Source: a virus. From it: a DNA stretch of 29,330 nucleotides. Both the position numbers and the translations under genes were made by a program. The stretch spans positions 1-29,330 of IMG/VR virus record IMGVR_UViG_3300018063_000036; one strand, 5' to 3'. Positions 2,870-29,330 of the stretch are shown in pieces (positions within the stretch are counted from its first letter, which is position 1; every line of letters starts with the position of its first letter). Below the pieces are notes generated by a model that worked only from the letters and a program-made list of their open reading frames with translations, did not search any database and was not told where the DNA came from.

Positions 2870-2899
2870 CGTATTTCTCCTTATCCTTTTGTGGGGCCG

Positions 2900-3103: not shown

Positions 3104-3120
3104 TTTGTCCTCTCTTATAA

Positions 3121-6112: not shown

Positions 6113-6342
6113 GTGGCTTTATTGGGGTCATAGCCGGCGTCCTTGTCATCGGGGCAATTATCTGGTTGATTCTCCGAAAGATGCCCTTCGTCGGCGGCAA
6201 GTTGAAATCCTACGAACGGGACGTGAAGGACAAGGTGGTCCCGGGGTACGACAAAGACTTGGATGCGGATCTGCCTGGCCGGAAGTCCCGAAATCGGTAT
6301 AGTATCTTTAGCCGATTCAAGAAGAAAAAACTTGACACTTAG
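6109..6342 (+). CDS. Small membrane protein with basic C-terminus
   Basis: A 77-residue protein from ATG 6109, coupled to the preceding gene by ATGA. Residues 3-22 form one hydrophobic helix (FIGVIAGVLVIGAIIWLIL), followed by RKMPFVGGKLK and a charged, poorly ordered tail ending RFKKKKLDT. A single-pass protein with a cytoplasmic C-terminus is predicted. A longer frame from 5992 overlaps the previous gene and lacks a ribosome binding site. Function is unknown; it is not clearly a holin. Confidence 0.72.
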   Translation: MSGFIGVIAGVLVIGAIIWLILRKMPFVGGKLKSYERDVKDKVVPGYDKDLDADLPGRKSRNRYSIFSRFKKKKLDT

Positions 6343-11465: not shown

Positions 11466-13524
11466 ACGAGCCGACCGGGAAGAACTCAATCCCTACTTAG
11501 AGCGCCAGCCGGTTCATAAGTTGACGGATAAGCAAGCGTTGCTCCGGGTGATGAATGACTATCGCGAAGCGCAGGCGGCTAAAGACAATGCTCTGACCCG
11601 AGCTGTCCGCTACGATGCCATGTATCAGGCGCTTGATGCACCCGATGAAGCCATTGACCAAACCACCGGCTTAATTGAAGATGACGAATCAATGTACTCC
11701 AATACCTATATGCCGATAGGGGCGGCGATTGTCGATTCGGCCATAGCTCAACTGTTCAATCTCATTTTTGCGACAGAAGACTATTTCAAAATTGAAGCGG
11801 ACGACATCGAGGATATGCTGTTTGAAACCGAAGTGACGGCGTTTTTCAAAAAGCGCCATAAAGAAATGGGCTTCAAGCACAAGGTCTATCAGGCACTCTC
11901 TCAAGCTTGCTGCTTTGATTACGCAGTAACCCATACCCGTTGGTTGATGGAGGGTGGCTACGAACCTCGGCCAGTCAGGCGGATTGAGGAAGTAAAATTG
12001 GGCGCCACGATGTTACGAAAGCAGACGGTGCGAGCCGAGACGATGTATGTACCGGACAAAATCGACCGCTCCGATTTACAGGTCTTGAATTTTATGCGCT
12101 GTTATCCCGATCCGTTGGCCACTGACGGATTCAATGACAGCCGCTTCTTTGTAGATGACTTCGATATTGCGCTGGAAGATTTAATTGCGCAATCGGAGAA
12201 TATGGTTCCCTGGGGCAAGTATAAAAATATCGAAAAGATTGTGGCCGAAACCAAAGAGGAACTCGACTCTGGCCAAGTTTACAATGTTGATTATTCGAAA
12301 AGCAGAGACACGGAAATCCGCAAAACGATTCTGCATTCCCGAAAGCGCACGGTCATCCGCTATTGGACAAAACATCATATCATCAAAGTCTGCCAGGGGC
12401 ATATCATCCAGAGACAGAATATCCCGGGCTGGCCGTTGCAAGAGTGGAGCATTTTCCCGAAACCGGTTCCCTCATTCGGCGGGATGGGCTTTCTCCAGAG
12501 AATCGAACGTAATGGTTACGACATCAACGCCAGCTTGAACAGTCGGCGAAATCTCCAGAATTTAATCTCCAATCCCTTTGCAGTGATTGACCAAGAATTG
12601 ATTGGCAGTGAAGAAGGTGAGCCGCGGTTGTGGCCGGGCAAGGTGATGGTTTCCCGGGGCGGCAATGCCAATGACAAGATTTTCGTTTACACTCCCGGCG
12701 CCAATACCAATCAGGATGCCATAGCGGACGTCAATATGCAGATGGAGATGACACAGCGGGTAAGCTCGGTCGATGAAAACGCTTTCGGAATAATCCGCGG
12801 CGACAGAACCACGGCAACGGAAGTCCGACAGGCCGCTGCCGGCAGAATGACTCGATTGGGGGTTACCGCCCAAAGACTCGAAGAGCAATGCCTTGAAAAA
12901 ATCTACATTAACCATTTCCACTTGGAGATGACCTTTTTGACGAAGACGGAGTTTGTCCGGTACTTCGGCGACAAGGGCGAACAAATGTTGGCGGTTGATT
13001 CCGCATCGTTTATGTGGAACAAGATGCCACGCTTTGTGGCAATGGGAACTTTCTCAGTGCTTGAGGATGCCGTAAAGATGCAACAATTCTTTACCGCAGT
13101 GCAGTTGGCGGCGGGAATGCCGCAAGTTCAATTCAACTGGAATAACATTGCTTTACAGGTCTTCCGATATTTGCATCCGAAGGAATACTACAAATTTGTT
13201 AAAGACCCGAACATCCCCAGCGAGAACATTCCGCCGGACATTGAGAATATGCTGATTGCTCAAGGTCGAGTGGTGCGACGCTCACCGGCGAATAACGATG
13301 GCGAACACCTACCCGTCCATGAATCGGTTAAGCTAACAAAAGATTATCAAATTTGGCCGCAGGCCAGAAGACTGTTACTTGACCAACACATCAACGAACA
13401 TAAGGCCGGCCAAGGGGCGGTTGCCAATGCGCCATCCCTACAAAAAATGCTTGGTCGGCAGCAGGACTCGGCTGATTCACTGCGGGGCATCAGGCCGGGC
13501 TTAAATGCACAGGTGGCCGCATAA
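11446..13524 (+). CDS. Portal protein (podovirus-like)
   Basis: A 692-residue protein that forms the ring through which DNA enters and leaves the capsid. The long central core has GMGFLQRIERNGYDINASLN, NLQNLISNPFAVIDQEL, LWPGKVMVSRGG and MTQRVSSVDENAFGIIRG, then TATEVRQAAAGRMTRLGV, the wing/stem pattern seen in large portals of podoviruses. The C-terminus (KAGQGAVANAPSLQ...) is flexible. TTG 11446 is supported by AAAGGA six bases upstream and overlaps the TerL end. The location between TerL and scaffold confirms the call. Confidence 0.9.
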   Translation: MPDEDIKRADREELNPYLERQPVHKLTDKQALLRVMNDYREAQAAKDNALTRAVRYDAMYQALDAPDEAIDQTTGLIEDDESMYSNTYMPIGAAIVDSAIAQLFNLIFATEDYFKIEADDIEDMLFETEVTAFFKKRHKEMGFKHKVYQALSQACCFDYAVTHTRWLMEGGYEPRPVRRIEEVKLGATMLRKQTVRAETMYVPDKIDRSDLQVLNFMRCYPDPLATDGFNDSRFFVDDFDIALEDLIAQSENMVPWGKYKNIEKIVAETKEELDSGQVYNVDYSKSRDTEIRKTILHSRKRTVIRYWTKHHIIKVCQGHIIQRQNIPGWPLQEWSIFPKPVPSFGGMGFLQRIERNGYDINASLNSRRNLQNLISNPFAVIDQELIGSEEGEPRLWPGKVMVSRGGNANDKIFVYTPGANTNQDAIADVNMQMEMTQRVSSVDENAFGIIRGDRTTATEVRQAAAGRMTRLGVTAQRLEEQCLEKIYINHFHLEMTFLTKTEFVRYFGDKGEQMLAVDSASFMWNKMPRFVAMGTFSVLEDAVKMQQFFTAVQLAAGMPQVQFNWNNIALQVFRYLHPKEYYKFVKDPNIPSENIPPDIENMLIAQGRVVRRSPANNDGEHLPVHESVKLTKDYQIWPQARRLLLDQHINEHKAGQGAVANAPSLQKMLGRQQDSADSLRGIRPGLNAQVAA

Positions 13525-13821
13525 ATGCCAGAGCAGAAACCAAAATTTGTAATTTTTACGGAGTTGAGAAGTGACCCAGCTTTTATTGACATTGAAAATT
13601 TTGCGCTCCGGAAAATTAAAGAGCAAAAAGACAAAGCGTTGGCCATGCCGGAGGGGACGGTGGAGCAGGAACACTTGGCCAAGGCGGAACGCCAGAAAGC
13701 GGCTCATTGGGACGAACTTTGGAATTCGATAAAGCTCTATATGTTCAATACGATAGGACAAAAAAGTAAACCAAGTCATAAACCAAAACAATTTCAATTA
13801 AGGAGACAAAATGCTATTTAG
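13525..13821 (+). CDS. Small hypothetical protein between portal and scaffold
   Basis: A 98-residue, highly charged helical protein (RKIKEQKDKALAMPEG, KAERQKAAHWDELW) with ATG 13525 immediately after the portal stop. The last eleven bases overlap the scaffold gene. It has no recognised family. Small proteins in this position can be head-completion or scaffold accessory factors, but that is positional inference only. Confidence 0.7.
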   Translation: MPEQKPKFVIFTELRSDPAFIDIENFALRKIKEQKDKALAMPEGTVEQEHLAKAERQKAAHWDELWNSIKLYMFNTIGQKSKPSHKPKQFQLRRQNAI

Positions 13822-14614
13822 ACGACACATAGGTCTCGACCGCAAATCCGGAGACACGGGTGGCGGTGCGACTGGCGGAACGGAAGATGCGAATGCTGGT
13901 AAAGGCGGCGCAGGTTCCGGCGGAAGTCAGGGTGGAGACACATCGACCTCAGGTGACGCCAAGAACCAAGTAACTCCCGAACAGCAGATTGCCAACATCA
14001 CGAAAGAGCGGGACGAGGCGATTAAGAAACACGACGCCTTAGCCAAGCGCATCGGTGAACAGGGTAACCAGATAGCTACTCTGAAAAAAATCGATACAGG
14101 CTTGAGAAGTGACCCGAAAACTCTTTTGTCGAATCTGGCCAAATCTGCCGGTCTCGAAATCTATTTCGACAAACCCCAAACCGCCAGTGCACAAGGTGGG
14201 CAGGGTGATGGGAAGACAGACATTCAGAAAACCGGACTTGAGATGAAGGACATTACGGCTACTTTTAACCGCAACATCCAGTCTTATCTGAATCCGATGC
14301 AGGAAAGAATGTTTGCAACCCAGCACAAAGATTGGGATGTTTTAGCGGATGAAAGGTCTTCCGTGAAGTTGGATCACGACAGCGGAACCCTTACTGACAG
14401 CGAACTTCTCCACTTCGCCGCGAGGGGCAGAAACCTCGGCGCCATTCTTGCGGATGCCAAACAGGACTGGGAAAAGGAATATATCGAGAATCTTGCGAGA
14501 AAGAATAAGGAGCAACAGGAAACTGGCGGAGCCGGTGGTGGCGATAAAGGCAACACTGGAAAGAAGGCTGCCGCATCGCTTGAACAAGCGGTTGCTGGCG
14601 GAATTTTCAGATAA
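13811..14614 (+). CDS. Capsid scaffold protein (probable)
   Basis: A 267-residue protein with scaffold-like composition: a Gly/Thr/Ser-rich disordered N-terminus (residues 15-48), a coiled-coil block (TKERDEAIKKHDALAKRI, about 62-80), a charged Gln/Glu-rich middle and a Gly/Lys/Ala-rich end. There are no enzymatic motifs. AAGGAGA lies directly upstream of ATG 13811. Its position immediately before the major capsid gene is classic. Scaffolds template procapsid assembly and leave or are degraded; no protease gene is seen nearby. Confidence 0.82.
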   Translation: MLFRRHIGLDRKSGDTGGGATGGTEDANAGKGGAGSGGSQGGDTSTSGDAKNQVTPEQQIANITKERDEAIKKHDALAKRIGEQGNQIATLKKIDTGLRSDPKTLLSNLAKSAGLEIYFDKPQTASAQGGQGDGKTDIQKTGLEMKDITATFNRNIQSYLNPMQERMFATQHKDWDVLADERSSVKLDHDSGTLTDSELLHFAARGRNLGAILADAKQDWEKEYIENLARKNKEQQETGGAGGGDKGNTGKKAAASLEQAVAGGIFR

Positions 14615-14637
14615 CCTTTTTTTAGGAGAACCACTCG

Positions 14638-15825
14638 ATGGCTTTTTATTCAGAAGCGTCGTTTAAGCGTGGGACAAAAGATACCAGTCTCGAAATATCT
14701 CAAGGGAAGCCACTTGAAATAGGCGAGAAAATCTGGATGCTACACCCAAACCGAAATCAGGGTTTGCGGTGGGCGCTACGCACAGGACGGCGCGTCAACA
14801 CACCAAGAGTCACATTCGGACACAATGAAACTGTGCCGAATCCTCAGTGGGTAACTTACAATGGTGCCAACGAGACATCGCAGGGGACAACCGGACTTGT
14901 TTTCAAAACAGGTCACGGCACCCGCCTGACAACCGGATTCCGAATCTTCTTCCCGAGGATAAAGGAAATCATCCGGTTGACGGCAGTGATGTCCACGGAC
15001 ACAACTGGTACAGTTACCCGCAACTTCGGCCTCGGCAATGCGACTACTTCATTGCTGAAAGTCGGAGACAAAGGGCTTCTACTGACGCCAGTATTCGAGG
15101 AAGGTTTCACGATTGGTCTCGGTTTGACCAGCTCTCAAGTCAATCGCTCATTCCCCGTGGAAGAAGTTGATTGGCCAATAGCGCTGTCACACAAAGAGGC
15201 TGCAGAAGCATCATATGCCGGCGACCCGTTTGTTCGGGCCGTTGAGAATTCGATACAGCAATCAAAAGACCAGATGGAAGCGACAATGTATTTTGGCGCC
15301 AAGGCCACTACCACTGTCGGTGGTATTCCCATAACCGCGGCTGAAGGTTGCGCTAACTTCGTTCAAACGAATGTTTATAGTGCAACTTATTTGAGCCGTA
15401 TGGACTTGTGGGACATCATCGGTGAAATTTTGTCGCGTTCACCAGAAGGTTTTTCCATTCATTGCTCGTGGGCCTTCAAGAATTTAATCACCGGGTGGGG
15501 ATTAAATAGTGTCGTTACCACCCCTGACACCACGGTCGATGGTCTCAGCATTACGACTTTGAGAACCCCGAATGGCGATTTCCCACTTCAGGTTATAGAC
15601 CTGTTTGGACAAGAGCCGACCCTGATGGGTACGGTGATGTTCATTCCCTACGGGAAGATTGACTACCGGCCGCTCGTTTACTATGAGGATTGGGACATCC
15701 GTTACTATCCGATCCCGAAAGTCAAGACGATGGCCAAGGAAGGTCACATCTACGGCATCTATGGCTGGGAGTATTTTGAGCAGGAAACCTGGGGTAAACT
15801 CGAAGGTCTGCGGTTCGCCGCATAA
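14638..15825 (+). CDS. Major capsid protein
   Basis: A 395-residue protein with AGGAGA eight bases upstream of ATG 14638. It is strand-rich, with motifs such as FPVEEVDWPIALSHKE, NSIQQSKDQMEATMYFGA, YLSRMDLWDIIGEIL and a C-terminal DYRPLVYYEDWDIRYY / GIYGWEYFEQETWGKL. Size, position after the scaffold and low cysteine count fit an HK97-fold phage capsid protein. It may belong to the group of podovirus capsid proteins that includes SU10, but this is not certain. A structure prediction would settle the fold. Confidence 0.87.
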   Translation: MAFYSEASFKRGTKDTSLEISQGKPLEIGEKIWMLHPNRNQGLRWALRTGRRVNTPRVTFGHNETVPNPQWVTYNGANETSQGTTGLVFKTGHGTRLTTGFRIFFPRIKEIIRLTAVMSTDTTGTVTRNFGLGNATTSLLKVGDKGLLLTPVFEEGFTIGLGLTSSQVNRSFPVEEVDWPIALSHKEAAEASYAGDPFVRAVENSIQQSKDQMEATMYFGAKATTTVGGIPITAAEGCANFVQTNVYSATYLSRMDLWDIIGEILSRSPEGFSIHCSWAFKNLITGWGLNSVVTTPDTTVDGLSITTLRTPNGDFPLQVIDLFGQEPTLMGTVMFIPYGKIDYRPLVYYEDWDIRYYPIPKVKTMAKEGHIYGIYGWEYFEQETWGKLEGLRFAA

Positions 15826-15837
15826 GGAGGATTGACG

Positions 15838-16662
15838 ATGTATTCTTACAATTTTCAACCTCAGGATTGGATACGCAAATCCGTTCTTTCAATAACCGAC
15901 GCTGGTATTCTTATGCGTATCCGGCAGAAGAAAACCTCTGCCTTAGGCGGCCAAGCCGTTGCTCAAATCAGCATAGCCGTGACAACCGGCGATGTTACGT
16001 TTGAGCAGGGAGCCACCGTAGCGGCTGCCAACACGACTACTGGTGACAATCCTCAAGTGGGTGCGACCCCCGGAGTGATTGACCTGTCGGCGTTGGTGCC
16101 CGTGACCTACGCAGCATTCAAGGCGGCCGTTGATGAGACCGATGATTGGGAGTGCATCTTAACAGGCGCACTGCCCGACGACCTTATCGAAGCCGCCGGC
16201 ACCGGAGACCTGCTTACGGCAACCGACACTCTTTGCTCCACCGATGCCGGTGGTGCAGTGCTGAACGACATCAGTCAGTCACTTATGGAAGTGGCCTCGA
16301 TGACGTTCAATGCCGGTAGCAACGTGCCGCATAACCACGACGCTAATGTCCTGCACGAATTGCAGGAAGTGAAGGGGACATTTACCTACACTGGAGCGGC
16401 CACGCTGAAGGTGTTTGAGTGCGATGACGTCGCTAACACCTCACTCGAGATTCTCAATATCGGGGCAGCCGCCACGACGGTTGAGAAGGCTTATCCGGGC
16501 GATGCCGGACGTGGTGAACCGATTATAAGTACAAAGTCGAAGAGATTAGTGGTGAAGGCCGCAGCCGCGACCACGCTCACCGTCTCCAGTCTTTTTATCA
16601 ATGGTCGGTCTTATGCCTATGGCCCCGGAATCAGAAAAGGCAAGTTAGAGTCTTCGCTCTAA
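15838..16662 (+). CDS. Virion structural protein, possible head decoration
   Basis: A 274-residue protein starting at ATG 15838, with AAGGAGG (15824-15830) 7 bases upstream. It is rich in Ala, Thr, Val and Gly with many predicted strands (TFEQGATVAAANTTTGD, TGAATLKVFECDDVANTS, AAATTLTVSSLFINGRSY), typical of phage decoration or fibre-like head proteins. The position directly after the major capsid gene supports a head role. No specific family was recognised. Confidence 0.7.
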   Translation: MYSYNFQPQDWIRKSVLSITDAGILMRIRQKKTSALGGQAVAQISIAVTTGDVTFEQGATVAAANTTTGDNPQVGATPGVIDLSALVPVTYAAFKAAVDETDDWECILTGALPDDLIEAAGTGDLLTATDTLCSTDAGGAVLNDISQSLMEVASMTFNAGSNVPHNHDANVLHELQEVKGTFTYTGAATLKVFECDDVANTSLEILNIGAAATTVEKAYPGDAGRGEPIISTKSKRLVVKAAAATTLTVSSLFINGRSYAYGPGIRKGKLESSL

Positions 16663-17156: not shown

Positions 17157-17831
17157 ATGGCCACCATTTCTTGGTACGCGACTGAGATGATGGACGAGTT
17201 CAAGTCGTCCGCCACTGATGTTCGTGCTCGAGTAGAACGGGCGGCGCGGGAGGTTGTTTTAGACATTCTGCTTCAAAATGATTCCCGCTTCCGGCGGCTT
17301 GAGAAGAAAACCACCTTGGCTTTTGCCGCTAACGATGATGCCGAGAAATTGCCGGCTGACTTTCGGACTATTAAACGGCCATTGATTGAAGTTGATAGCA
17401 CGGGAAAGCACATCGCCGAAATTGACATTGTGACCGACAGCGAATTCTGGCGGCGCAAAGGCGATGAAAATTACGCTGGCGTTCCCTATACGATGGTCGA
17501 AACCCGACAGACCCCGGTAGCGGCGGAATACTTGGTGTTAAGTGCACTGCCCACGAGCACCCGATATTTTACATTTGGCTATTATCGGAAACCGACTGGT
17601 GATGACGCCGACATGGTTGAAAACGAGGGTTTAGTTAAAAATGGCATTCGCTCCCGCTTCAGGGAATTCATGGGGATGGACGGTGCTGGCGTGGCCTTGC
17701 AGATTTACGAGGGAACGAAAAAGAACGCCATTGAACATCCGGGTGAACGGGCGACTGGGCTATCACTGCGTCCGAGCAAAAAGCAGCAGAGACTCAATCG
17801 GCTCCTCCATAAAATTGGCAGGGGGAACTGA
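17157..17831 (+). CDS. Head-tail adaptor protein (podovirus type)
   Basis: A 224-residue protein. The N-terminal helices (VRARVERAAREVVLDILLQN) are followed by KLPADFRTIKRPLIEV (about residues 64-79), a DSEFWRRKG block and FTFGYYRKPTGD, matching the L-P-x-D-F-x-x-I...V...Y-Y-x-K-P layout of phage adaptor proteins that sit under the portal. AAGGATAGCG precedes ATG 17157. A related but signal-peptide-bearing protein is encoded next, so this may be one of an adaptor pair. It would connect portal to tail in the cytoplasm. Confidence 0.78.
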   Translation: MATISWYATEMMDEFKSSATDVRARVERAAREVVLDILLQNDSRFRRLEKKTTLAFAANDDAEKLPADFRTIKRPLIEVDSTGKHIAEIDIVTDSEFWRRKGDENYAGVPYTMVETRQTPVAAEYLVLSALPTSTRYFTFGYYRKPTGDDADMVENEGLVKNGIRSRFREFMGMDGAGVALQIYEGTKKNAIEHPGERATGLSLRPSKKQQRLNRLLHKIGRGN

Positions 17832-17839
17832 TAACCATT

Positions 17840-18754
17840 ATGGGAAATTTTAGCGGGTCGTCGAAAAAACACCTTGGGATTGCCCTCATGGTTTTTCTAT
17901 TGTGTTCACCTCTCATCCAGGCGGCGACCCTTATTCAACTTGACGCTAAACTCCGGCATCGGGTGAATGAAGTCGATACGATGATTGCTCTTTTTGACAC
18001 GACCAATTCATTCAGCTGGTTCAATCAGGCGCAGGACAAAATAGCGGTCATTGCCGGATATTTCCCCAAGTTTATTGACAGTAGTTTATCGAATGTCGAT
18101 TCGTCGTGGTTTAAGTTGCCTACGGATTTTCGCCAGATTAAGGCGGTGTACGTCATAGCACAAAAGAGATTCTATCCGGTCTTTCCAAATCCGGGATTTC
18201 TCGGACAGGCACAAGGAATGCAATACTCGATAGTTTGGCAGACGGAAGACACTGCTCGACTATTATTAGTTCGAGGGGGAATTCAAGATAAGCAGACGAA
18301 TGTAATTTTTAGCGCCGATTCTACGACCTACCGATTGCCAAGTGATGTGCGGAATGTTGTCGGCTGTATGGTTTGGGCGGGGCAGTGGGAGCCGATAACT
18401 TTGAGTCCGATGTTCACGACCGACGGCACAAGGCTTTACGATCTTCACTTCAAACATCGGGATACAGCGTTATTGTATCTGCGGGGAAACTTTGCGGAGG
18501 GGGATTCTGTCCGGGTATTCTATCAGAAAACAGTGGAGGTCAGCGACAGAATCAGGATTGAGTATTTGAGCATTCCGGTTGATATGGCGCTTTCGACAAC
18601 GAATTGCGAAGTGCCGGACGATTTAGAGGAATACTTGGTCGAGGAGGCTCTGGGCTATTATTTCGACTACAAGGGCGACCATTCAACCGCACAGGGGTTT
18701 TGGCAGAGAGTACGGATAGATTTGGGGGTTTTGAAACCGCAGGGGCAGCAATGA
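17840..18754 (+). CDS. Adaptor-like tail protein with Sec signal peptide
   Basis: A 304-residue protein. Residues 1-13 are polar and basic (GSSKKH), 14-27 hydrophobic (IALMVFLLCSPLIQ), then A-A-T: a Sec-type signal peptide with likely cleavage after A28 or A29. The rest resembles the preceding adaptor: LPTDFRQIKAV at 93-103. The pattern repeats internally as LPSDVRNVVGCMV at 166-178, suggesting a duplicated beta module. Its C-terminus is acidic and helical (DDLEEYLVEEALGYYFDYKG). The site upstream of ATG 17840 is weak (GGGGGA about 14 bases away). Its stop overlaps the next start. An export signal on a phage adaptor is unexpected. Confidence 0.75.
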   Translation: MGNFSGSSKKHLGIALMVFLLCSPLIQAATLIQLDAKLRHRVNEVDTMIALFDTTNSFSWFNQAQDKIAVIAGYFPKFIDSSLSNVDSSWFKLPTDFRQIKAVYVIAQKRFYPVFPNPGFLGQAQGMQYSIVWQTEDTARLLLVRGGIQDKQTNVIFSADSTTYRLPSDVRNVVGCMVWAGQWEPITLSPMFTTDGTRLYDLHFKHRDTALLYLRGNFAEGDSVRVFYQKTVEVSDRIRIEYLSIPVDMALSTTNCEVPDDLEEYLVEEALGYYFDYKGDHSTAQGFWQRVRIDLGVLKPQGQQ

Positions 18755-21543
18755 GATATTTTTTTGTCCTGATATTCATAGCAGCTTCTGTTTTCAGTCA
18801 GCCGATTCAAGAATATAAAGTCCGTGACTTCTCTGGTGGCTTGGTCAATTCGCTGTCCAATGCGCTCATGCAGGATAATCAGTCGTTGGTATTGGAAAAC
18901 TATGACATCATCAACGGCAAACTTCGTCGCCGGCCAGGGCTGACGACTTATCACAATACCGGCTTACTGCGCTACCCAATTCAAGCGCTTTTACCCTATG
19001 TGGCTCCGCAGATAGACAAAGACCTCTTAGTTTTAATGGGTGGCAATTACTTTCCCTTCAATTCGGCGGATTCAAATATCAGCGCGGTGAGGATTTGCAA
19101 CGAGGCTTTATCGATATGTACGACCTTGGTCGTCAGACATCCGGGTTTTTACGGAGATAGGAGAAATCAAAACACTCCCTATAATGTGAATTCGGCGGTG
19201 ATAAATAATCGCCTTATTTTTGCAGTGGCAAATTCTGAAATGCGGATTTGGGATGGTAACAAAATGTCTCCGGCAAGACCACGTAGTGCCGGCCAGCCGT
19301 ATGCAATTCCGCTTGACGGAAGCGGAAAGATGAATGGTATATTTCAATATCGGATTTTACCCCAAAATAATTCTGTTCCGCCGAAGTATGGCGATCTATC
19401 TCCGCCAAGTTGGCCGGTGAGAGTAAAGGATGGTAATGTTTTTGTTGGAGACATGGGACCATTTATTAGCGGTGCACTTCAGGATTCCGCTTGGATTTAT
19501 AGAAGTAAAAATGGTGGGCCGTATCAAAAATTAAAACAATTTGACGACGCTTTTGGAGGAAACGGGGTAATCATCGTTGGTCTCGATGGCTATTATATTG
19601 ATACTACTAAAGAGACTTTGGCAGCAGACAGCCTCCCCTTCCCTTGGGGTTATCACACGAATTGCATTTTTGGCACCTGTGGTCCTGATTCGGTTTTAGC
19701 TTTTGGTGAAATGCGGGCGCTTCAAAAAAGTGGTACAGCGGCGGCTGGCTATGGTGTTACCCGTGGGTTGAAAGGATTAACCGATTCTACCTGTGTTTGC
19801 TTTGTCTATTCTGTTGTTTTCAGAGATTCTTCGGGTCGTCAGAGCTATGCTTCTCCGCCTACTTGTCTTTGTTATTCTGCCGCCATATTACGAGGAGCTG
19901 GTGGGAATGGCATTAAGGACAGCCTTTTGAACATTCCGATTCCAAGAGATAGTGGCATTGTTAATAAACTTCTACTACGGGGATTGTTTGGGTCGATTGT
20001 TTGGAGAGACAGCTCTGCCGAAAAACTTTCACGTCTTCATCCTTGCTATGTGGAGAATAGTTCGATATACCGAGTCGGTGTTGATGGTGGTAGCGTTTCT
20101 TGGATTTCTCCATCGAGCGGCACAACGGGGGCTATGGCCGTTGACAGCATGACATCTAAAATAAACAACAGTGCCTATATGAGTAGCCGCATAAAAGCGG
20201 AGGATTCTGGCAGTTTTATTCATATTCGAAGTGCTGTTCCTGGCCAAACTTGGAAACTTACCGCAGAACGATTTTGTAAGGGCGCATCAGGTTTACCAAG
20301 TTTTGTATATGGTGAGGAACTCAAACAGAACGTTTTCCAGACGGGTGATTATCTTTATAATTTTGTTATTCTTGATACACTCGACGACACCGTAACGACC
20401 TATATTGACAGTATCCCCTATGATTCATTGCTAATTATTCCTTGGTGCAAAGACAGCAGTAACGCTCAACAGCCCGAAAAATTTTGTTATGATGATTCTG
20501 CTATAACTTTCCAACCTTTTGACATTGCTTATCACGGAGACCGATTATTTGCTATCGGCGATTTAGAGGATAAAAACGTCTTTTGGTACTCCGACTTCGG
20601 TAGGCCGACGACTATGCCACCCGACCATTTTATTGCGGTGGAATCGCAGTTAGGTGATTGGTTTGTGCGCCTCTTAAGCGTCGGTGATAATCTGCTTTTG
20701 TTTCGGCAAAATTCCATCTATGGACTTTCCGGCCTGAGTTTTTTCCAGTTCAATTTAGAGAAACTGGTTTCCGGTGTCGGCCTATCGGCACCGCGAACTT
20801 TGACTGTCAATAAGAATCTCATCAATTTCCTGCACGAATCCGGCGCTTACGAAATGAGTATGGCTGGCGGGTTAAGCAATCCGACAATATCGTGGGTTAT
20901 CAAAAACTCCCTTGATTCAATAGGAACGAATCTTCGTCGGTCGGTGGCAAAGCCGGTTGGCGATGACTGGTGGCTGTCAGTTCCGATTGATTCGACAGCG
21001 GTGGACAGCACATCAAACAATCAGACTTATATTTACAGCCGGACTCCGACTCCGCATTGGAAGTCATACAGTTTTGGGATCAAGGACATTGTTCTATTTG
21101 ATAAGGACACTCTCGCCCTGGACTACGCGACTGACAAATTCATTTTCGTAAGCGGGACAGATAGTTTGTTTCAGTGGGGAGACAAAGCGATTGATTTAGA
21201 TAATGGTCAGCGAATTATATCCAAGTATCAGAGCAAATACTTTTTCCATGAAGGCGAAGGCCCGATTCGCCGGGAGAAGATTTTCTATGTTGATTTCTTT
21301 GGGAAACATATTGTAGGTGGCCTTGATGATACGTTGATGGTGACATTTTACGAAGAAAGTAAGGGCGCTGTCGATTCAGTGAAATTTGTGCCAAAGTTTA
21401 GAGATAGAAAAGTTGACCGGGTGACTTTTAATCGAATCAGTGATAATTGCTCCATAGGATGGCGGGCCTATGGTTTGAGCGAATATGAAATAACGGGGTT
21501 TACCATTGGTTTTTTAGCTTGGGATGACGGAATTCGCAGATGA
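18751..21543 (+). CDS. Tail nozzle/tubular-type protein with Sec signal peptide
   Basis: A 930-residue protein from ATG 18751 (ATGA coupling; AGGGGC five bases upstream). Residues 1-16 are MRYFFVLIFIAASVFS then QP: a classic signal peptide with V-x-S cleavage. Next comes VRDFSGGLVNSLSNAL, then ENYDIINGKLRRRPGLT, the N-terminal signature of phage tail nozzle/tubular B-like proteins (FSGG...N.d...g.L..RPG). The remainder is strand-rich and may form beta-propeller blades. About thirteen cysteines, mostly at 19090-20510 in close pairs such as NCIFGTC, TCVC and TCLC, contrast with two in the 395-residue capsid protein. It probably forms the distal tail; the signal and cysteines suggest folding outside the cytoplasm. 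Confidence 0.78.
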   Translation: MRYFFVLIFIAASVFSQPIQEYKVRDFSGGLVNSLSNALMQDNQSLVLENYDIINGKLRRRPGLTTYHNTGLLRYPIQALLPYVAPQIDKDLLVLMGGNYFPFNSADSNISAVRICNEALSICTTLVVRHPGFYGDRRNQNTPYNVNSAVINNRLIFAVANSEMRIWDGNKMSPARPRSAGQPYAIPLDGSGKMNGIFQYRILPQNNSVPPKYGDLSPPSWPVRVKDGNVFVGDMGPFISGALQDSAWIYRSKNGGPYQKLKQFDDAFGGNGVIIVGLDGYYIDTTKETLAADSLPFPWGYHTNCIFGTCGPDSVLAFGEMRALQKSGTAAAGYGVTRGLKGLTDSTCVCFVYSVVFRDSSGRQSYASPPTCLCYSAAILRGAGGNGIKDSLLNIPIPRDSGIVNKLLLRGLFGSIVWRDSSAEKLSRLHPCYVENSSIYRVGVDGGSVSWISPSSGTTGAMAVDSMTSKINNSAYMSSRIKAEDSGSFIHIRSAVPGQTWKLTAERFCKGASGLPSFVYGEELKQNVFQTGDYLYNFVILDTLDDTVTTYIDSIPYDSLLIIPWCKDSSNAQQPEKFCYDDSAITFQPFDIAYHGDRLFAIGDLEDKNVFWYSDFGRPTTMPPDHFIAVESQLGDWFVRLLSVGDNLLLFRQNSIYGLSGLSFFQFNLEKLVSGVGLSAPRTLTVNKNLINFLHESGAYEMSMAGGLSNPTISWVIKNSLDSIGTNLRRSVAKPVGDDWWLSVPIDSTAVDSTSNNQTYIYSRTPTPHWKSYSFGIKDIVLFDKDTLALDYATDKFIFVSGTDSLFQWGDKAIDLDNGQRIISKYQSKYFFHEGEGPIRREKIFYVDFFGKHIVGGLDDTLMVTFYEESKGAVDSVKFVPKFRDRKVDRVTFNRISDNCSIGWRAYGLSEYEITGFTIGFLAWDDGIRR

Positions 21544-21980
21544 AAATTTACATACTGATTACATTTTTCATTTCAGTTCTCTCTGCCTCCGCTGCTGCTG
21601 AAAAGGCCGATACTGCGAAAGCGATAGTTGAGATCAAGGGCGTTGATGAGAAGAAGATTCTCGGCAAGGTCAAGACCATCTACACTATTCAGGGCAGGCC
21701 GACATTTCAGCATCGGGCGGCAAAGGGCTGGCATCAGGTTGCCGATGCGGTAAAACTGGTAGCCGGAAGAGCTACGGTTACTTTGAACACATCCACCGCA
21801 GAGGGCCGACAGGATATCAGCTTTTTTGATAAAACGAGTTATCGGGGGTTGGCCTTCAGTCTGGACACGCTGAATACTTTTACATATTCGGTGATTCCGT
21901 TAAATGGTAAGCAATTTATGATTAAGTCAACAAATGAGACAGACACGGCGACAGTGAATTTCGTTGTGGATGGAGAGTAA
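21540..21980 (+). CDS. Small secreted beta-rich protein of the tail region
   Basis: A 146-residue protein from ATG 21540, overlapping the nozzle stop (ATGA). Residues 1-20 (MKIYILITFFISVLSASAAA) are a Sec signal peptide with A-x-A cleavage before EK. The mature part is strand-rich, with GRATVTLNTSTAEG, GLAFSLDTLNTFTYSVIPLN and IKSTNETDTATVNFVVDGE, similar in style to small beta-sandwich domains attached to phage tail and fibre proteins. There are no cysteines. It is the third consecutive gene with a signal peptide. Function is unknown; a tail or receptor-contact role is inferred. Confidence 0.75.
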   Translation: MKIYILITFFISVLSASAAAEKADTAKAIVEIKGVDEKKILGKVKTIYTIQGRPTFQHRAAKGWHQVADAVKLVAGRATVTLNTSTAEGRQDISFFDKTSYRGLAFSLDTLNTFTYSVIPLNGKQFMIKSTNETDTATVNFVVDGE

Positions 21981-21982: not shown

Positions 21983-22537
21983 ATGGCCTTTCCTTTTGTT
22001 CCACTTGCGATTGGTGCTGGCATAGCTGGGCAGATATTAGGAGGTAAAGACCAGCCAGGGCAACTTCCGCCAGAGGTTCTGGCTGAAATTCTGAGAGCAG
22101 TTAAATTAGACCGTTCCAGTATGTACATTCCGGACAGGGATACTTTTATGGCCGGGATTCAAGCGAACATTGATGAAATTTTGTCTGGAATTGCCCCCGG
22201 AGTGGAAGCCTTTAATGCTGACTTAGCGAGCCGGGGAATCTTTCGGTCGGGCGAGGCACCGAAGGAATTATATCGAAATGTTTATGCGCCGATAGCAAGA
22301 GCGGCCACGAGTGCAGCAACTCAAGGAGCCATCGGATATGAGCAGTTGAGAATTCAGGGCGCAAGCGCGGCGCAACAGCAAGCACTTCAAGCCTTGCAGC
22401 TTTTAGTGCAAGGTTCGGTTCCAACTGGCGGACAAACGTCAGCATTTCAGGACACATTATTTAATTTAGGTGATTTAGGCACCACGTTAGGTCTTATGAA
22501 AGCATTCGGATTGATGGGTGGCGGAGCAGCAGCATAA
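21983..22537 (+). CDS. Probable internal virion/ejection protein, small
   Basis: A 184-residue protein from ATG 21983, with GGAG seven bases upstream. It opens with a hydrophobic glycine-rich segment (PLAIGAGIAGQILGG), continues with helices and a long Ala/Gln region (GASAAQQQALQALQLLVQG), and ends with LMKAFGLMGGGAAA. An amphipathic Gly/Ala-rich N-terminus and helical body are typical of the small pilot proteins ejected with DNA by podoviruses. The assignment is by composition and position only. Confidence 0.65.
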   Translation: MAFPFVPLAIGAGIAGQILGGKDQPGQLPPEVLAEILRAVKLDRSSMYIPDRDTFMAGIQANIDEILSGIAPGVEAFNADLASRGIFRSGEAPKELYRNVYAPIARAATSAATQGAIGYEQLRIQGASAAQQQALQALQLLVQGSVPTGGQTSAFQDTLFNLGDLGTTLGLMKAFGLMGGGAAA

Positions 22538-23677
22538 ATGCCGAGACGAGAATCAAGATATGGCGCTACAATTACTCAAGCGCTTTTAGAGCGTGGCGCC
22601 GAACAACGCCGGCGGGCACAAAAAGAGCAGGATGTCAAAGAGGCCGTTAAACTTCAAAAGATTGTTTACGGCACGGGCACGATAGAGGAAAAACGTGAAG
22701 CGGCGACCAGATTGGCGGCATTGGGGTTTTCAGTTCCGGCTGATGCCCTGCGAGAAAAAGTTAATTTAGGTGGACTTTACACCGCACTTAAGGTTCCGGA
22801 AAATCTGCGACCGTTATTCGACAAAGCTATTGAAACGAATCTTTTGACCGCTGGCCAAGCATTGCAGATGGGGGCGACCATTGGAGAGCAAGCCGGAACC
22901 TTGACTGATGAAGAAATTCGTGAGGCTCATAAGTTGGGATATTTCAAACGGGGAGTATTTGCTAATTCACCTCTATCCGAAATGACAGCAGACCAAATTA
23001 TTGCCAACACGAATCTTCTGGGTGGATTAGTCAAAGAATTTGGCTCTAGAATAACAGAGGAAGCATTTTTAGGGGGAGCAAAAACCCAAAAGGCGACCGA
23101 AGCTCAAGCGAGACAGCAGGTTTATATTGAAGCAACGACTGATGCGGAGGGGAACCCGATTCCTCTGAATACCCTAATGAAAGACTCCGCCAGATTAGGA
23201 GCATTGCAAACAGGCGCCGGTATCAACCCGAAACAACTTATGGCACTTTATGGCGCTGATGCTTCTATGTACGACGAGGCCGAGAAGTCAATTATGACGG
23301 AATTGAGTGGGGGGAATCCGATAATGTTTGCGTTTGCAATGGAAGAGTTTGTCACTGGAAAGATGGTAGGAGAAAAAAAGAAAAAATGGGATCAATATTT
23401 AACACCCGATGGTACACTCAAGCCGGAGCTTGTTACCGAAAGGATGACCAAAATCCAGCAGGCCATTATAAATCAGTCCGATTTGGGGCATATTGATATT
23501 GAAAATGTACCTATCGAATTGCGGTCTTTTGTTACTGGCGCTATTGAGGCCGGACTTAAAAGTCGGAAGCAGGTTAAAGCGCAGATTGATTTAGAGAGAA
23601 GTGACCCTACCAGTAAAATGAAAATAACAAAGGAACAGGAATTGCAGATATTGGAGTATTTCCCAGATGCCGACTAA
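22538..23677 (+). CDS. Helical virion-associated protein, unknown
   Basis: A 379-residue, mostly helical, charged protein starting directly after the previous stop. It begins MPRRESRYGATITQALLERG, followed by a coiled-coil-like RRRAQKEQDVKEAVKLQ and regular helices through to LQILEYFPDAD. No family was recognised. Position between the small ejection-like protein and the giant ORF suggests an internal virion or DNA-ejection protein, comparable in place to T7 gp15. It overlaps the giant gene by 11 bases. Confidence 0.68.
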   Translation: MPRRESRYGATITQALLERGAEQRRRAQKEQDVKEAVKLQKIVYGTGTIEEKREAATRLAALGFSVPADALREKVNLGGLYTALKVPENLRPLFDKAIETNLLTAGQALQMGATIGEQAGTLTDEEIREAHKLGYFKRGVFANSPLSEMTADQIIANTNLLGGLVKEFGSRITEEAFLGGAKTQKATEAQARQQVYIEATTDAEGNPIPLNTLMKDSARLGALQTGAGINPKQLMALYGADASMYDEAEKSIMTELSGGNPIMFAFAMEEFVTGKMVGEKKKKWDQYLTPDGTLKPELVTERMTKIQQAIINQSDLGHIDIENVPIELRSFVTGAIEAGLKSRKQVKAQIDLERSDPTSKMKITKEQELQILEYFPDAD

Positions 23678-26600
23678 TCGGATTTTTTCAGAGCCGACTG
23701 ATTCTGCGACTATGTTGCAGGAAGATTTACCGGTAATTGAAAAACGCCTTTTTTCAGAACCACTAAAAATAGTTCGTGGCCTTCCCCCGATTGAGCAACA
23801 GGGGGCGATGACAGTTCGGGGATTGCCGCCAGTTGTTCCAGAATTCCCGAACTTACCCGAAGACGCCAGCTATGTCAATACTCAAGAGTTTCGAGACCTT
23901 TACACTAAAAGCATTGTTGACCCCGAAAGTCTCTCACCATCGGAAAGCAAACAAGTTGAGGCTGCTCTTGAGCATTTTCCGCAGTTGAGGGAACACGCCC
24001 GGCAAGTTGAGTCATTGATTCGGCCACCGCTTGACCCGCGGTTGCCACAATTACAAGAAGTCGGAGATAAGCTGGGTAAGGAATTTGACAAAGAGGCCAT
24101 CCGGTTATTGGTTGAAGACGAGATGCGGAACGAGGGGCCGATTGGAAAGATTTGGAGATCGAGCCTGAAAGGTGCTTCTAAGCGACTTTTGGATGCCGAC
24201 ATTTTGGGTGAAATAATGAGATTTATGCCGGGTGCAGGGGGACATCCTTCTGATGCGACAGGATTTGGCGATATTCTGTCTCCTGGTACGAAACAGATTT
24301 CGATGTCCGAGAGAGCGCACGGGATGTTTAAGGATTTAGGTCTGTTGCCGACACAAGCGGGGGAATTTCACGAGTTAGTAGTTGATAAGGCCGATAGATT
24401 ATATGTCAAAGGCTATGCTGAAGCCGAAAGCGGTCAAGAGCGGAAGACACCGACAGGTAAGACAATCGTGCGGATTCCGAAGACAACCGTGGACAGGATA
24501 TCCGAGAATGCTATTAAGGGAGCATTGCGATTAGCGCCGGAATTGATGGCTGGACTGGTAGAGAATCCCATTTCTTTTGTTACGGGACTGGTTACTTTTG
24601 CTCCTCATGTGGTAAATGTCGCATTAGAGGCCGCGACTGGTCGTAACATTATTCTCGACAAGGATGGCAATGTTATCTCCGCGGTAAGTGAAGAGGGAAA
24701 GCAGGCTGCAATAGAGGAATTGATACAGAATCCGATAGCGCCGGTTATGGCACTTCTGATGATTAAGGGAGTTATCAGCAAGGTCGGATCGGTGCGTGGG
24801 GCCGCGGGTACTGACCGTGCTGGTGGTCGGGTTGGCGGTGATTTTATTACCGCAGAGAGGAAAGTATTCGAAGAGCAAGTCAACGCCCGTCGGCAGGCCG
24901 AGGAGCAAGCACAGACATTTAAGAAGAAATTCGAGCAGGAACAGCAGGCCAGACAGACCGAATCCCAAACCAGTCGAATTAGAAAAAGACAGCGCCGAGA
25001 GTACGAATCGGAAGTAAAGGGACAGTTCTGGGAAGACGAGATATCAAGAATTAAGCGCTTGGGGAATGGTGAAGCGCGGTCAGAATTGTTAGAGATGCAG
25101 GAATTTGCCACCGAGAAGTTTTCGGCTCTTGACATCGCAAAAATGAGCATCAATGAGGTTCGGCATAATTTATCAGGTGAGAGGATACCGCTTGAACCAA
25201 GTGCTGACCAATCCTTCTACCGGGTGGTTTCTCGAGAAGCGCCAGAGGAAGCCGTAGGGGCGAAAGCCGAAGCAAAGGTACCGGAGATAGGGGTTCAGGC
25301 GGATATCGTCACTGACCCGCAGGGAGAGTTACAAATTCGGCCATCCCAGAAAGCGGTTGAGCCGGTTGATGGTTCGCCGGAGCAATTAGCGGCGACATTG
25401 AAAATTAGATATAACGGAGACGTTGGGGAACTTCCCGGGGCTGGCCCACTCCACAGTTTTACGGACCCGAAAACTGGGCAGACTTTCAATGTGCAGGATT
25501 TGTCTAAATTGCCCATGGGGTTACAGCAAGTTAGGATGCGTTACGCTGAACGCCAAATTCAGGAACAAATGGCCGCAGAAGATTTGCGCCGTATCCGCCA
25601 AGAGCGTGAACGGCAAGAGCTTTTGGGTGATGTTTCACGTGAAACCAGCCCCACTTTCAAATTGGCACGAGATAGAGTTGAGGAACTGGATGCCGACATT
25701 AAGAAATTCGATGATTTAATTGCCCAATTCGAAGAAGTTGAGCCCGGACTAAAAGGTGTTCAAAAAGAGAATGCAGAAGGGGCGATTAAGGGTTTTCAGA
25801 AAAACAGGGAAGAGCGAGTCAGGGAAATGGACACGGCGTTGAAGGAATTGCGGGCCGCCCGCGAAGAAACGGGAACCGCACCGGAGCCGATAGAAGCTGA
25901 AATAGCAAGTAAGAGGGTTGACGAAAGGGCAGCGGCAAGCCAAGAAGCCCTATCCGAGGCAGGAAAGGGTGATACTAAAGAGGTTAGGGATGCGAATAAT
26001 GCTAAAGCGATTGAAGCGGTCAAGGCTGAAAGGGAGGCGGAGCGGGTAGCGGAAGAAATTGAGGCAGCGACAGACAGGGCTATCGAGGCCGAGGGTGCGA
26101 TGGTTCGTCAGGCGACCGAATCTAAAGCGACTGGCGAAGCGGTGGGACAAGACATCTTCGCTGGGAAGCAACAATTCAAAATGAAGAAGCGGACCGACAT
26201 CATTCGTGATCCGGCACGTTTTCAGACACGGATTGGAGTGGAGGCCGCACGAGAAACCGTTGATTCTATCAAGGATGATTACATCGCCGGTAAGTTGAGA
26301 ATTGATGAGTTTGATCCTGTTTGGTTTTGGAAAGACCCTAAAAACGGGCAAGAGTATGCCTTGAGTAATAGTAGGCACACGGCTGCGGAAGAATTGGGAA
26401 TTGAAGATATTCCTACTTATGAATTTAAGGGAACCGAACAGGAAGCGATAGCTTTTGCTCATCGGTCAAACAAGAAGGCCACACCTGAAGATTTGCGTTC
26501 TCAGGTGGCATCGTTAAAGTATTTGCGGGGACAAGGAGGTGCGGAAGGTTCCGTGGAGTCCTTAAAGTCAATGTTTCATGATAATTATAGAAGTTTTGAA

Positions 26601-29330
26601 GCATATAGTTATTTGAATCCAGCCGGAAAGATTATGGATGTTATCGCAGATAGGGCTTTTGATGATTACCCGTATTCGGCCACCCACGCACGCACGATTG
26701 GAAGACTTCGGAAGGAATATCCTCAATTAAATAATCGCCATGAGCAACAAATCTGGGATCAACTTTATCCGACGTCTGGCGATAAGGTGCCGCTCTATAA
26801 TAAACTGAATGCTACCGAATTATCAGACATGGTTCACCATCAAGTAACCGATTTTGCCTTTACGGAGAATACGCCAATTAAATTGCGACACGACAAAGAC
26901 CCAATGACCGGTGTGCGGGCACGGGCGGATACTGGCGCAATAGTCGAAAAAGTCAAGGCATTAAAGGCGCTGAAAGAAGACATTATCACCAAGCGGGTGC
27001 ACACAAAAGAAGGGCTTGAGGCGATTGACAAACAAATTAAGACTCTTGAAGATGGTGTCACGGAAATGATGAAAACGCAAACCACAATGGACTTATTTTC
27101 GGGCATACCCGTTCATCAAATACCAGAACTTCTTGAAACTCTATATGGTGGCACAAAAGGGGCGGTTAAACACTTGGAGCGTATGATTGGCGATGCTCAA
27201 ACGCCGCCCGAAATAAAAGCCGGAGTCAAAACTGGCTTGGAAGCGATGACCAATCACGCCCATCTGGTAAAAGAGTCGAAACACTTTGCGGATGCCTTGT
27301 CGAGGCAATTCAATAGATTGATACCCGATGAGGGGCGCCGAGAAATAATCAGAGACGCACTACAAATTAACAACGACAAAGCTTATGCCGCCTTTATGAA
27401 AGAAAAGGGCTTTGATATTAGTCCGGCTCTTGAAGCAATTAAGAGTCTGACACCATTTGAAAAGGGGATCGTTGAATGGTTGCGAATACTTAGGGATAGG
27501 AATACAAAATTCAAAATTGATAATGAATTAGTTAATGTCAGGAAGATGCCGCCAGGCGTCAGTTATTTATTTCAGTGGTGGATGAATCCAGAAACCGGAA
27601 AGCCCTACAATATGAATTACGGCAAATTCTCAAGGTCTTTGCCTCAAGCCAAGGAGCGGACTTATGACACCTACATCGAAGGTGAACTGTACGGAAGCAG
27701 GCCGGCCTATAATAATCTGGGGACACTTATCGGGATGGATTTTCAGACCGCTATGAGAGCACATGCCAGCCGCGAACTATTTAAGACGCTGCATCAAATT
27801 CCTCTGGGTACTGGCGAGAGAGTTGCGGTCAGACCAATAACCAGCCAAGGTCTTAAAGTTGAAGGTATTGAGCCGGCACCGGAACTTATATTAGGAACGC
27901 CGGAGGAGATGGTCGCCAGAGAAGCGGAGGTCAGCGCTGCCCGGAGGGGTGAATCTGAAGCTATGCTGGTAGATAACTGGCGCAGGATTAGTGAATCTCA
28001 TTTGTTTGAAGATTACGAACGACTTGACAACCCATCTCTTTACAGGCCGATTGAATATATCAATTCCAGAGGCCAAAAGGCCGTATTAGAAGGTCCGGCG
28101 GCTGTCCATAAGTCCATATACCCGAAATTAAAAAATTACTTCGACAATCCGACCCTTCAAACTGCCAATAAGGTTATGATGGTGGCGAAGTCGGCGTTTC
28201 TTACTGGTCCGTTTCACATGACGACGACTGGAGTGATTGACCTCTTTATGGGGAGAATCCCCTTTGTGAATGTTGTCAGGGGCGGCCGACTTAAATGGGA
28301 CTTGGATGATCCGGTTACTCGACTATTAGCCAGAAACGGATTAAAAGCCCAGGGATATGAGGACGTCGGTTTGGACCCGATGAATATTTTATTTGAAGGC
28401 AAGATGCCAATCGGCAGGACGGCGGCCAAGGGTGTAAATTGGGCTATTTCTCCGTTTTATTATTCCAACAAATTAACATTTGATGTTTGGGTGAACAACT
28501 TGGCTTGGGCGCAGGCGCATGATTTTTATATCGCCAATCGGGCTAAATGGGCGAAAGACCCGAGGTACAAAGATTTGTCGGTTGAACAGGTGGATGATTT
28601 GGCGGCCAGGGAATCTGTCAAACAGACTACCAACTTCTTAGCTCACGAGGACATTCAGTTGGCCATATTGGAATCCGGTAAATTTATGAATCGTTTTTAT
28701 TACTCTACGACGGCCCGTAATATTTGGAATTTCGCAATGATAGCGCCGAGTTGGGCGCTTCGGCATATTCGTGGGTTTGCGATGGGAGCAAAATCATTCG
28801 TTCCCAATGAGGCGATAGCCGCTATCAATAGGAAGTTTGAGGCCAACAAAATTCTAAGGTCGCTTCATATTGACGAAAACACTCCGCAGTCGAATGTTTA
28901 CCAGCGCTACATTTACGGGATTGGCTTCGCTTATGCCACGGCCAATATACTGAACTATGTTACTACGGAGAAGATGGACGGCGAGGGGAAGTTCATATTT
29001 CAGAATCCTCCGGGGAAGAATGCCTTCCATATTCGGGCGCCGTGGAATGACCCTGACGATCCGAATGGTGAGAGGGGCGCCTGGATTCATCCTATCAAGG
29101 CCCTGTTTGAAGTGCCGGAGATGGCTTATTATGGAGGAAAAGCACTTTTTACTGGTGACCCGGAGGCTTTGCAGAAGTTCACTTCTAAATTAGCGCCATG
29201 GTGGTCGGCGGCTTTTGGGACATTGGTTTTCAATGTTGACGAGTTTGGCAATAAGATTTATCAGAAGCGAACATTGCCAGAAAAAATAGGAGAGTTTGTT
29301 GAAAAATCGGTAGTGCCGATGTCTATACAA
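23667..29330 (+). CDS. Giant polyvalent-type virion protein with ParB-like domain (3' truncated)
   Basis: The frame from ATG 23667 (GGAG ten bases upstream) stays open for 1888 codons to the window edge. Residues 5-10 and 27-32 repeat R[IL]FSEP; 36-41 and 50-55 repeat VRGLPP. Charged coiled-coil regions follow (about 400-450 and 680-820). At about 839-960 lies a ParB/sulfiredoxin-like domain: IIRDPARFQTRIG, FDPVWFWKDPKNGQEYALSN, SRHTAAEELGI and GTEQEAIAFAHRSN, as in large phage polyvalent proteins. The usual GHHR/GER loop reads SNSRH. The last 400 residues are helical with SAFLTGPFHMTTTG, TTARNIWNFAMIAPSWALRH and PPGKNAFHIRAPW, typical of large phage internal or polyvalent proteins. It is probably injected with the genome; this is inference. 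Confidence 0.82.
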   Translation, partial: MPTNRIFSEPTDSATMLQEDLPVIEKRLFSEPLKIVRGLPPIEQQGAMTVRGLPPVVPEFPNLPEDASYVNTQEFRDLYTKSIVDPESLSPSESKQVEAALEHFPQLREHARQVESLIRPPLDPRLPQLQEVGDKLGKEFDKEAIRLLVEDEMRNEGPIGKIWRSSLKGASKRLLDADILGEIMRFMPGAGGHPSDATGFGDILSPGTKQISMSERAHGMFKDLGLLPTQAGEFHELVVDKADRLYVKGYAEAESGQERKTPTGKTIVRIPKTTVDRISENAIKGALRLAPELMAGLVENPISFVTGLVTFAPHVVNVALEAATGRNIILDKDGNVISAVSEEGKQAAIEELIQNPIAPVMALLMIKGVISKVGSVRGAAGTDRAGGRVGGDFITAERKVFEEQVNARRQAEEQAQTFKKKFEQEQQARQTESQTSRIRKRQRREYESEVKGQFWEDEISRIKRLGNGEARSELLEMQEFATEKFSALDIAKMSINEVRHNLSGERIPLEPSADQSFYRVVSREAPEEAVGAKAEAKVPEIGVQADIVTDPQGELQIRPSQKAVEPVDGSPEQLAATLKIRYNGDVGELPGAGPLHSFTDPKTGQTFNVQDLSKLPMGLQQVRMRYAERQIQEQMAAEDLRRIRQERERQELLGDVSRETSPTFKLARDRVEELDADIKKFDDLIAQFEEVEPGLKGVQKENAEGAIKGFQKNREERVREMDTALKELRAAREETGTAPEPIEAEIASKRVDERAAASQEALSEAGKGDTKEVRDANNAKAIEAVKAEREAERVAEEIEAATDRAIEAEGAMVRQATESKATGEAVGQDIFAGKQQFKMKKRTDIIRDPARFQTRIGVEAARETVDSIKDDYIAGKLRIDEFDPVWFWKDPKNGQEYALSNSRHTAAEELGIEDIPTYEFKGTEQEAIAFAHRSNKKATPEDLRSQVASLKYLRGQGGAEGSVESLKSMFHDNYRSFEAYSYLNPAGKIMDVIADRAFDDYPYSATHARTIGRLRKEYPQLNNRHEQQIWDQLYPTSGDKVPLYNKLNATELSDMVHHQVTDFAFTENTPIKLRHDKDPMTGVRARADTGAIVEKVKALKALKEDIITKRVHTKEGLEAIDKQIKTLEDGVTEMMKTQTTMDLFSGIPVHQIPELLETLYGGTKGAVKHLERMIGDAQTPPEIKAGVKTGLEAMTNHAHLVKESKHFADALSRQFNRLIPDEGRREIIRDALQINNDKAYAAFMKEKGFDISPALEAIKSLTPFEKGIVEWLRILRDRNTKFKIDNELVNVRKMPPGVSYLFQWWMNPETGKPYNMNYGKFSRSLPQAKERTYDTYIEGELYGSRPAYNNLGTLIGMDFQTAMRAHASRELFKTLHQIPLGTGERVAVRPITSQGLKVEGIEPAPELILGTPEEMVAREAEVSAARRGESEAMLVDNWRRISESHLFEDYERLDNPSLYRPIEYINSRGQKAVLEGPAAVHKSIYPKLKNYFDNPTLQTANKVMMVAKSAFLTGPFHMTTTGVIDLFMGRIPFVNVVRGGRLKWDLDDPVTRLLARNGLKAQGYEDVGLDPMNILFEGKMPIGRTAAKGVNWAISPFYYSNKLTFDVWVNNLAWAQAHDFYIANRAKWAKDPRYKDLSVEQVDDLAARESVKQTTNFLAHEDIQLAILESGKFMNRFYYSTTARNIWNFAMIAPSWALRHIRGFAMGAKSFVPNEAIAAINRKFEANKILRSLHIDENTPQSNVYQRYIYGIGFAYATANILNYVTTEKMDGEGKFIFQNPPGKNAFHIRAPWNDPDDPNGERGAWIHPIKALFEVPEMAYYGGKALFTGDPEALQKFTSKLAPWWSAAFGTLVFNVDEFGNKIYQKRTLPEKIGEFVEKSVVPMSIQ

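Follow-up and report, generated by a model that had tools for sequence, protein, structure and literature searches.

Sec-type signal peptides are conserved on, and restricted to, the external tail genes of a family of short-tailed phages

Assembly of a tailed phage is assumed to take place wholly in the cytoplasm, and to our knowledge no such phage passes part of its particle through the host secretion machinery. The stretch of viral DNA analyzed here (the window; a complete IMG/VR record of 29,330 bases, the right end of which falls inside a gene) raised the question of why consecutive tail genes of such a phage should start with Sec-type signal peptides (SPs). The right half of the window encodes the structural proteins of a short-tailed phage, and the three Sec-type N-termini pointed out in the initial annotation were all present at their positions, namely on a second adaptor (adaptor2), the putative nozzle and a small beta-rich protein. 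The tail features are as follows.

17157-17831 (+), adaptor1-like head-tail protein, 224 aa; SU10_adaptor 15.8 bits (below the cutoff of 27), phrog_6013 tail protein E 0.005
17840-17923 (+), adaptor2 signal peptide, 28 aa; score 8.5
17924-18754 (+), predicted mature adaptor2, 276 aa; SU10_adaptor 41.8 bits (cutoff 27)
18751-18798 (+), nozzle signal peptide, 16 aa, cut at VFS/Q; score 7.2
18799-21543 (+), predicted mature tail nozzle, 914 aa; phrog_3287 9e-8 and Foldseek matches
21540-21599 (+), small tail protein signal peptide, 20 aa; score 8.9
21600-21980 (+), predicted mature small beta-rich protein, 126 aa; K1-lyase_C 23.8 bits (below the cutoff of 27)

With a slash at the predicted cut, the N-termini read MGNFSGSSKKHLGIALMVFLLCSPLIQA/ATLIQL for adaptor2 (17840), MRYFFVLIFIAASVFS/QPIQEYK for the nozzle (18751) and MKIYILITFFISVLSASAAA/EKADT for the small protein (21540), and the mature parts of the three contained no further membrane-spanning segment. 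The ATGA overlaps thought to join the tail genes occur at 18751 and 21540, but not between adaptor1 and adaptor2, which lie 8 bases apart. The SP score is a simple home-made Sec-signal rule with a call at 7 or more, which in an annotated stretch of E. coli K-12 called 6/6 known Sec proteins and none of the 12 cytoplasmic ones; it also picks membrane anchors, and an SP and an N-terminal anchor are not separable by it.

Judging from its profile match and a predicted structure, the protein encoded from 18751 is very likely a genuine tail nozzle. Its AlphaFold model was of low confidence (pLDDT 48), and the first 22 matches to this model in a Foldseek comparison with the PDB were phage tail hubs or nozzles (best E 3.9e-10), including those of Pa223, P22 gp10, GP4, SU10 (7z4f_G), phiM1 and T7 gp12; sequence searches of the PDB gave no true matches. 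The SU10_adaptor match of adaptor2 was found in 4/6 of the phages described below, and the candidate origin of adaptor2 as a duplicate of adaptor1 could not be shown (25 aligned columns, probability 7%). The small protein, for which the K1-lyase_C match (below cutoff) was seen in two of four members and the structure model (pLDDT 40) was too poor for use, is possibly a stand-alone spike C-terminal domain. Separately, the public 'amidase' label of the phrog_5107 family (L111:12257-13822; HMO-2011 record NC_021864) looks wrong, as these proteins resemble tail nozzles of the phrog_3287 / P22 gp10 type.

The tail genes are flanked by head genes and by genes for internal proteins, arranged as follows.

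9633-16662 (+), head module, terminase to decoration-like protein, all without SP
9633-11465 (+), terminase; phrog_2 4e-14
11446-13524 (+), portal; phrog_332 1e-12
13811-14614 (+), scaffold, without SP
14638-15825 (+), major capsid protein; SU10_MCP PF17236 29.6 bits (cutoff 24.1)
15832-16662 (+), decoration-like protein, without SP
21983-29330 (+), internal or ejection-type proteins (21983-22537, 22538-23677 and 23667 to the record end), no SP, no Cys

In addition, a 143-aa protein is encoded between the decoration-like protein and adaptor1. We infer from position and size that the large Cys-free genes at 21983-29330 encode ejection proteins. As the initial annotation had claimed, none of the portal, scaffold, capsid and adaptor1 has an SP by score. 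Elsewhere in the window, two small early-region ORFs (2796-3248 and 5992-6342) have strongly hydrophobic N-terminal segments and are possible membrane proteins.

Relatives were located with portal, nozzle and terminase profiles, among which those of the portal and terminase opened the family; single-protein searches with the adaptor2, capsid and nozzle of the window found no relatives, and two candidates (L104 and L105) were discarded by eye as flagellar-hook-like false positives. The five phages thus obtained (L002, L005, L006, L023 and L009) share about 35% protein identity with the window, giving six phages in all. An SP was present on adaptor2 in 6/6, on the nozzle in 6/6, on the small protein in all four records holding the gene, and on the one extra tail gene (1/1), which lies between adaptor2 and the nozzle in L023. 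In contrast, no SP was found in any of the 49 terminase, portal, scaffold, capsid, decoration, 143-aa-type, adaptor1 and internal proteins of the six phages: the head-module proteins lack it in all relatives, the internal proteins lack both SP and Cys throughout, and adaptor1, without SP in 6/6, is the last cytoplasmic-type tail gene. The SPs are thus conserved on the external tail genes and restricted to them (17/17 versus 0/49; Fisher p 4e-16, a guide only, as the genes are related). Homologues lacking the hydrophobic N-termini, which the initial annotation had named as the outcome that would speak against its reading, were not seen among the close relatives, every one of which keeps them on every such gene.

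Start codons are predictions, and chance hydrophobic starts or wrongly assigned codons could in principle mimic such a pattern. The score, however, called 0/406 internal Met starts from the window and three relatives and 68/20000 random 45-mers of the same composition, for two of the genes the start is set by an ATGA overlap, and the 17/17 versus 0/49 distribution refutes this explanation to a practical degree; we regard it as hardly credible. Furthermore, the nozzle SPs share 20% pairwise identity versus 58% in the residues directly after the cut, indicating that the property is kept rather than the sequence.

The features expected of substrates of Sec and signal peptidase I (basic n-region, hydrophobic core and small residue at -1) were found by score in 17/17 of these proteins. 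When the cut was placed by alignment in 12 nozzle and adaptor2 sequences, independently of any predictor, every one of the 12 had a small residue, A, G or S, at -1 (p about 1e-8). No lipobox Cys at +1 was found in the nozzles or small proteins, and a lipobox-like VLAC in adaptor2 occurs in L002 only; the Tat motif S/T-R-R-x-F-L-K was absent from the three SPs of the window and was not conserved among the relatives. The placement of the cut relative to the fold was also informative. Nozzles without SP start directly at a conserved 'F..GG' region, as in L022 (VALPIKTYQDFRGG), L110 of the L069/L110 phage (MENIEVLDFSGG) and L115 (MRTFQFFDNAGG), and the same start was found in six SP-less homologues (HMO-2011, CRP-1, MaAM05, RHph_N3_13, ct7ZZ929 and ctLwi270); the SP is missing from the nozzle homologues of isolated phages. 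In the window family this region begins a few residues past the predicted cut (QPIQEYKVRDFSGG), at the start point of the SP-less nozzles, so that removal of the SP would leave an ordinary nozzle. The next Met of the window nozzle after the SP is M40, which lies past the conserved mature start, so that an internal start would damage the nozzle.

These observations bear on the hydrophobic anchors offered as one explanation in the initial annotation, in which the N-termini would stay uncleaved and serve either as an anchor ring inserting into the host envelope for DNA delivery or as a tail holder on the inner membrane during assembly. The blindness of the score to the difference between SP and anchor leaves room for this, and the segment of one spike-position gene (L017:9200-12544) is more like a signal anchor; the small residue conserved at -1 in 12/12, the position of the SP directly before the canonical nozzle N-terminus and the presence of the same kind of N-terminus on the small protein and on unrelated spikes nevertheless make an anchor function unlikely. 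Sec export and cleavage of these tail proteins are, on the features of their N-termini, strongly favored.

The records of four relatives (G001, G002, G003 and G752) extend past the point where the window ends, and in each of them a second cluster of large SP-bearing genes follows the Cys-free internal genes, with four such genes in G001, at least two in G002, three in G003 and three in G752; G003 has one additional gene that is more like a signal anchor.

L014:171-8142 (-), second cluster, large SP-bearing spike- or enzyme-like genes
L015:7001-12558 (+), second cluster, large SP-bearing spike- or enzyme-like genes
L017:9200-17012 (+), second cluster, large SP-bearing spike- or enzyme-like genes
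L112:1-3863 (-), second cluster, large SP-bearing spike- or enzyme-like genes

Among them, L014:4045-8142 is a tailspike by profile (phrog_2234 E 8e-13; Beta_helix 45.9 bits), and the others gave beta-helix-, CBM96- or metallopeptidase-like matches, for instance the M12-like metallopeptidase L112:2074-3030 and the CBM96-like protein L017:12786-13577. These genes presumably encode virion spikes; some may be plain secreted enzymes. NlpC/P60 endolysin-like genes near the cluster have no SP and adjoin small membrane proteins that are candidate holins, an arrangement that fits the holin route for cytoplasmic contents. Since the spike-like genes carry an SP and the nearby endolysin-like genes do not, the export signal appears to label the exterior of the virion rather than to be a general habit of these phages. 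The exported tail module put forward at the outset is thus well supported by SP conservation, and is larger than had been described, since spike-like genes also carry SPs. Near the cluster end, small SP proteins of 160-180 aa (L013:17826-18320 (-), L015:15331-15870 and L017:17707-18195) were also noticed in three relatives, which are possibly outer-membrane barrels excluding other phages.

The resemblance of the downstream SP genes to secreted enzymes and binding modules (metallopeptidase, CBM96, beta-helix), together with the small SP proteins nearby that are possible outer-membrane barrels, could also mean that spikes, nozzle and adaptor2 are displayed or secreted and serve to modify the infected cell rather than to form the particle, through surface change, phage exclusion or polymer breakdown, and that the virion is built from copies escaping export. 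Such a role is improbable: profile, fold and position all identify adaptor2 and the nozzle as core parts of the tail, each occurs once per genome searched with no second, SP-less nozzle found, and an internal start at M40 would damage the nozzle. The SP genes together amount to an external tail without a head, so that secretion of head-less tail particles alongside virions, as decoys or tailocin-like killers, was also considered; no separate set of virion tail genes was found in these phages, and the operon also holds intact ejection and head genes, which renders this very improbable. Export of the outer tail of the virion itself accordingly remains the preferred reading.

The pattern extends beyond the family. 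The contig G565:C111 (L111 and L122) belongs to a phage whose terminase is of another family (phrog_38 6e-52), and its nozzle (phrog_3287, 1e-21) carries an SP, as do genes after the nozzle and fibre-position genes further on; its adaptor-position gene and the internal genes between the SP groups have none. Hydrophobic N-termini are therefore present in a distant phage with another terminase as well. The nozzle of a third, more distant phage (L069/L110) lacks an SP, yet neighbouring genes carry one, a case that counts against the route proposed below. Several further SP proteins were noted in these more distant phages. L069:9849-10346, from another uncultured phage, is a Phage_cement_2-like head decoration protein (24.3 bits, cutoff 24) with a clear SP, so that in some phages head proteins too may bear export signals. 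In the second lineage, L122:3677-4054 (-) encodes a small SP protein with a CPHC motif between the terminase and the portal-position gene. L091:17568-19613, on a more distant phage contig, encodes a 681-aa SP protein with CBM96, Ig-like and polysaccharide-lyase-14-like regions, possibly another exported spike.

As to the host, L009 lies in a contig of a Phycisphaerae MAG, and the MAG that contains the second lineage is of that phylum too; this is a hint only, as the MAG sampling covered that phylum only and contigs may be mis-binned. Gln at +1 was observed in 5/6 nozzles and in few other exported proteins, e.g., the L002 small protein and L015:7001-12019. Although Gln at this position in the nozzles recalls the Bacteroidetes Q-rule (PMC5837995), a Bacteroidota host was unsupported on this ground, the other exported proteins mostly lacking Gln at +1.

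The contrast in Cys content on which the initial annotation had drawn, 13 in the nozzle against 2 in the capsid protein, was correctly counted but says little, because the terminase is equally Cys-rich. Over the relatives, the Cys density was 1.39% in nozzles versus 1.49% in terminases, and that of the decoration protein equaled that of the nozzle; the disulfide argument was demoted accordingly. The window-family nozzles are higher in Cys than SP-less nozzle homologues (26 Cys in 3,137 residues, 0.83%), and the second-lineage nozzle is Cys-poor, with 2 Cys, one of them inside the SP. Oxidative folding may be a benefit of export. As a separate matter, the scaffold (13811-14614), the internal or ejection proteins (21983-29330) and their homologues contain zero Cys over thousands of residues in every relative, which is strong Cys avoidance.

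Taken together, we propose the following route. The host Sec machinery would carry adaptor2, the nozzle, the small protein and, in the relatives with longer records, the spikes across the inner membrane, where signal peptidase I would cut the SP and free the normal N-terminus of each tail protein. The exported proteins would then fold and build the outer tail, either within the periplasm or at the outer surface of the inner membrane. Assembly and filling of the heads would take place in the cytoplasm, the portal and adaptor1 closing them with the ejection proteins inside. The two halves would join via adaptor1 and adaptor2, most simply at lysis, when the inner membrane is breached by the holin; where and when they join is a proposal, and we know of no precedent for a filled head joining a tail located outside the membrane. 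The whole chain, from Sec export, cleavage and folding outside the inner membrane to later joining with cytoplasm-made heads, appears reasonably probable. That these are two-compartment tailed phages, with a Sec-secreted outer tail and a cytoplasmic head, a trait that arose or spread in at least two lineages with different terminases, is a wider claim for which we consider the balance to be even. SPs on the external tail parts and none on the head or injected parts suggest a split assembly route, and the site of phage tail construction becomes a directly testable question. If the route is true, these phages rely on the Sec machinery and signal peptidase of the host, and the secretion state of the host could limit virion output. 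The SP would also be a simple genomic mark for finding similar phages, and a means of telling external from internal virion proteins where genomes lack annotation.

Phage endolysins and filamentous phage coat proteins also use Sec. Unlike endolysins, which as lysis proteins are not part of the virion, the SPs described here sit on the tail of an icosahedral-type tailed phage, and unlike filamentous phages, which are extruded and not tailed, the present phages have tails. With the hubs and nozzles of P22 gp10, T7 gp12 and phrog_3287, the window family shares the nozzle fold and the N-terminal 'F..GG' region, whereas the SP-less homologues of that nozzle type begin at 'F..GG' (six checked). The Escherichia phage SU10 (Kuravirus; portal, adaptor and nozzle; PMC9509320) is similar in its SU10-type capsid (PF17236), SU10_adaptor domain and nozzle fold (7z4f_G); its structure paper (PMC9509320) describes one adaptor protein and does not mention signal peptides. 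Unlike SU10, the uncultured phages of the window family possess a second, SP-bearing adaptor and SPs on the nozzle, small protein and spikes. No description of SPs on the nozzle, an adaptor or the spikes of a phage was found in the full-text literature searched, which contains few subscription papers. Within that literature, the nearest described case is that of the Porphyromonas gingivalis prophages (PMC10367356), in which Q-rule SPs occur on spanins and on genes whose function is not known, and which have capsid proteins with an 'SP' that is probably removed by the prohead protease. The likeness lies in phage proteins fitted to the host Sec machinery; no tail adaptor, nozzle or spike set is among them. 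The window family differs from the usual short-tailed phage tails in bearing SPs on adaptor2, the nozzle and the small protein in all relatives.
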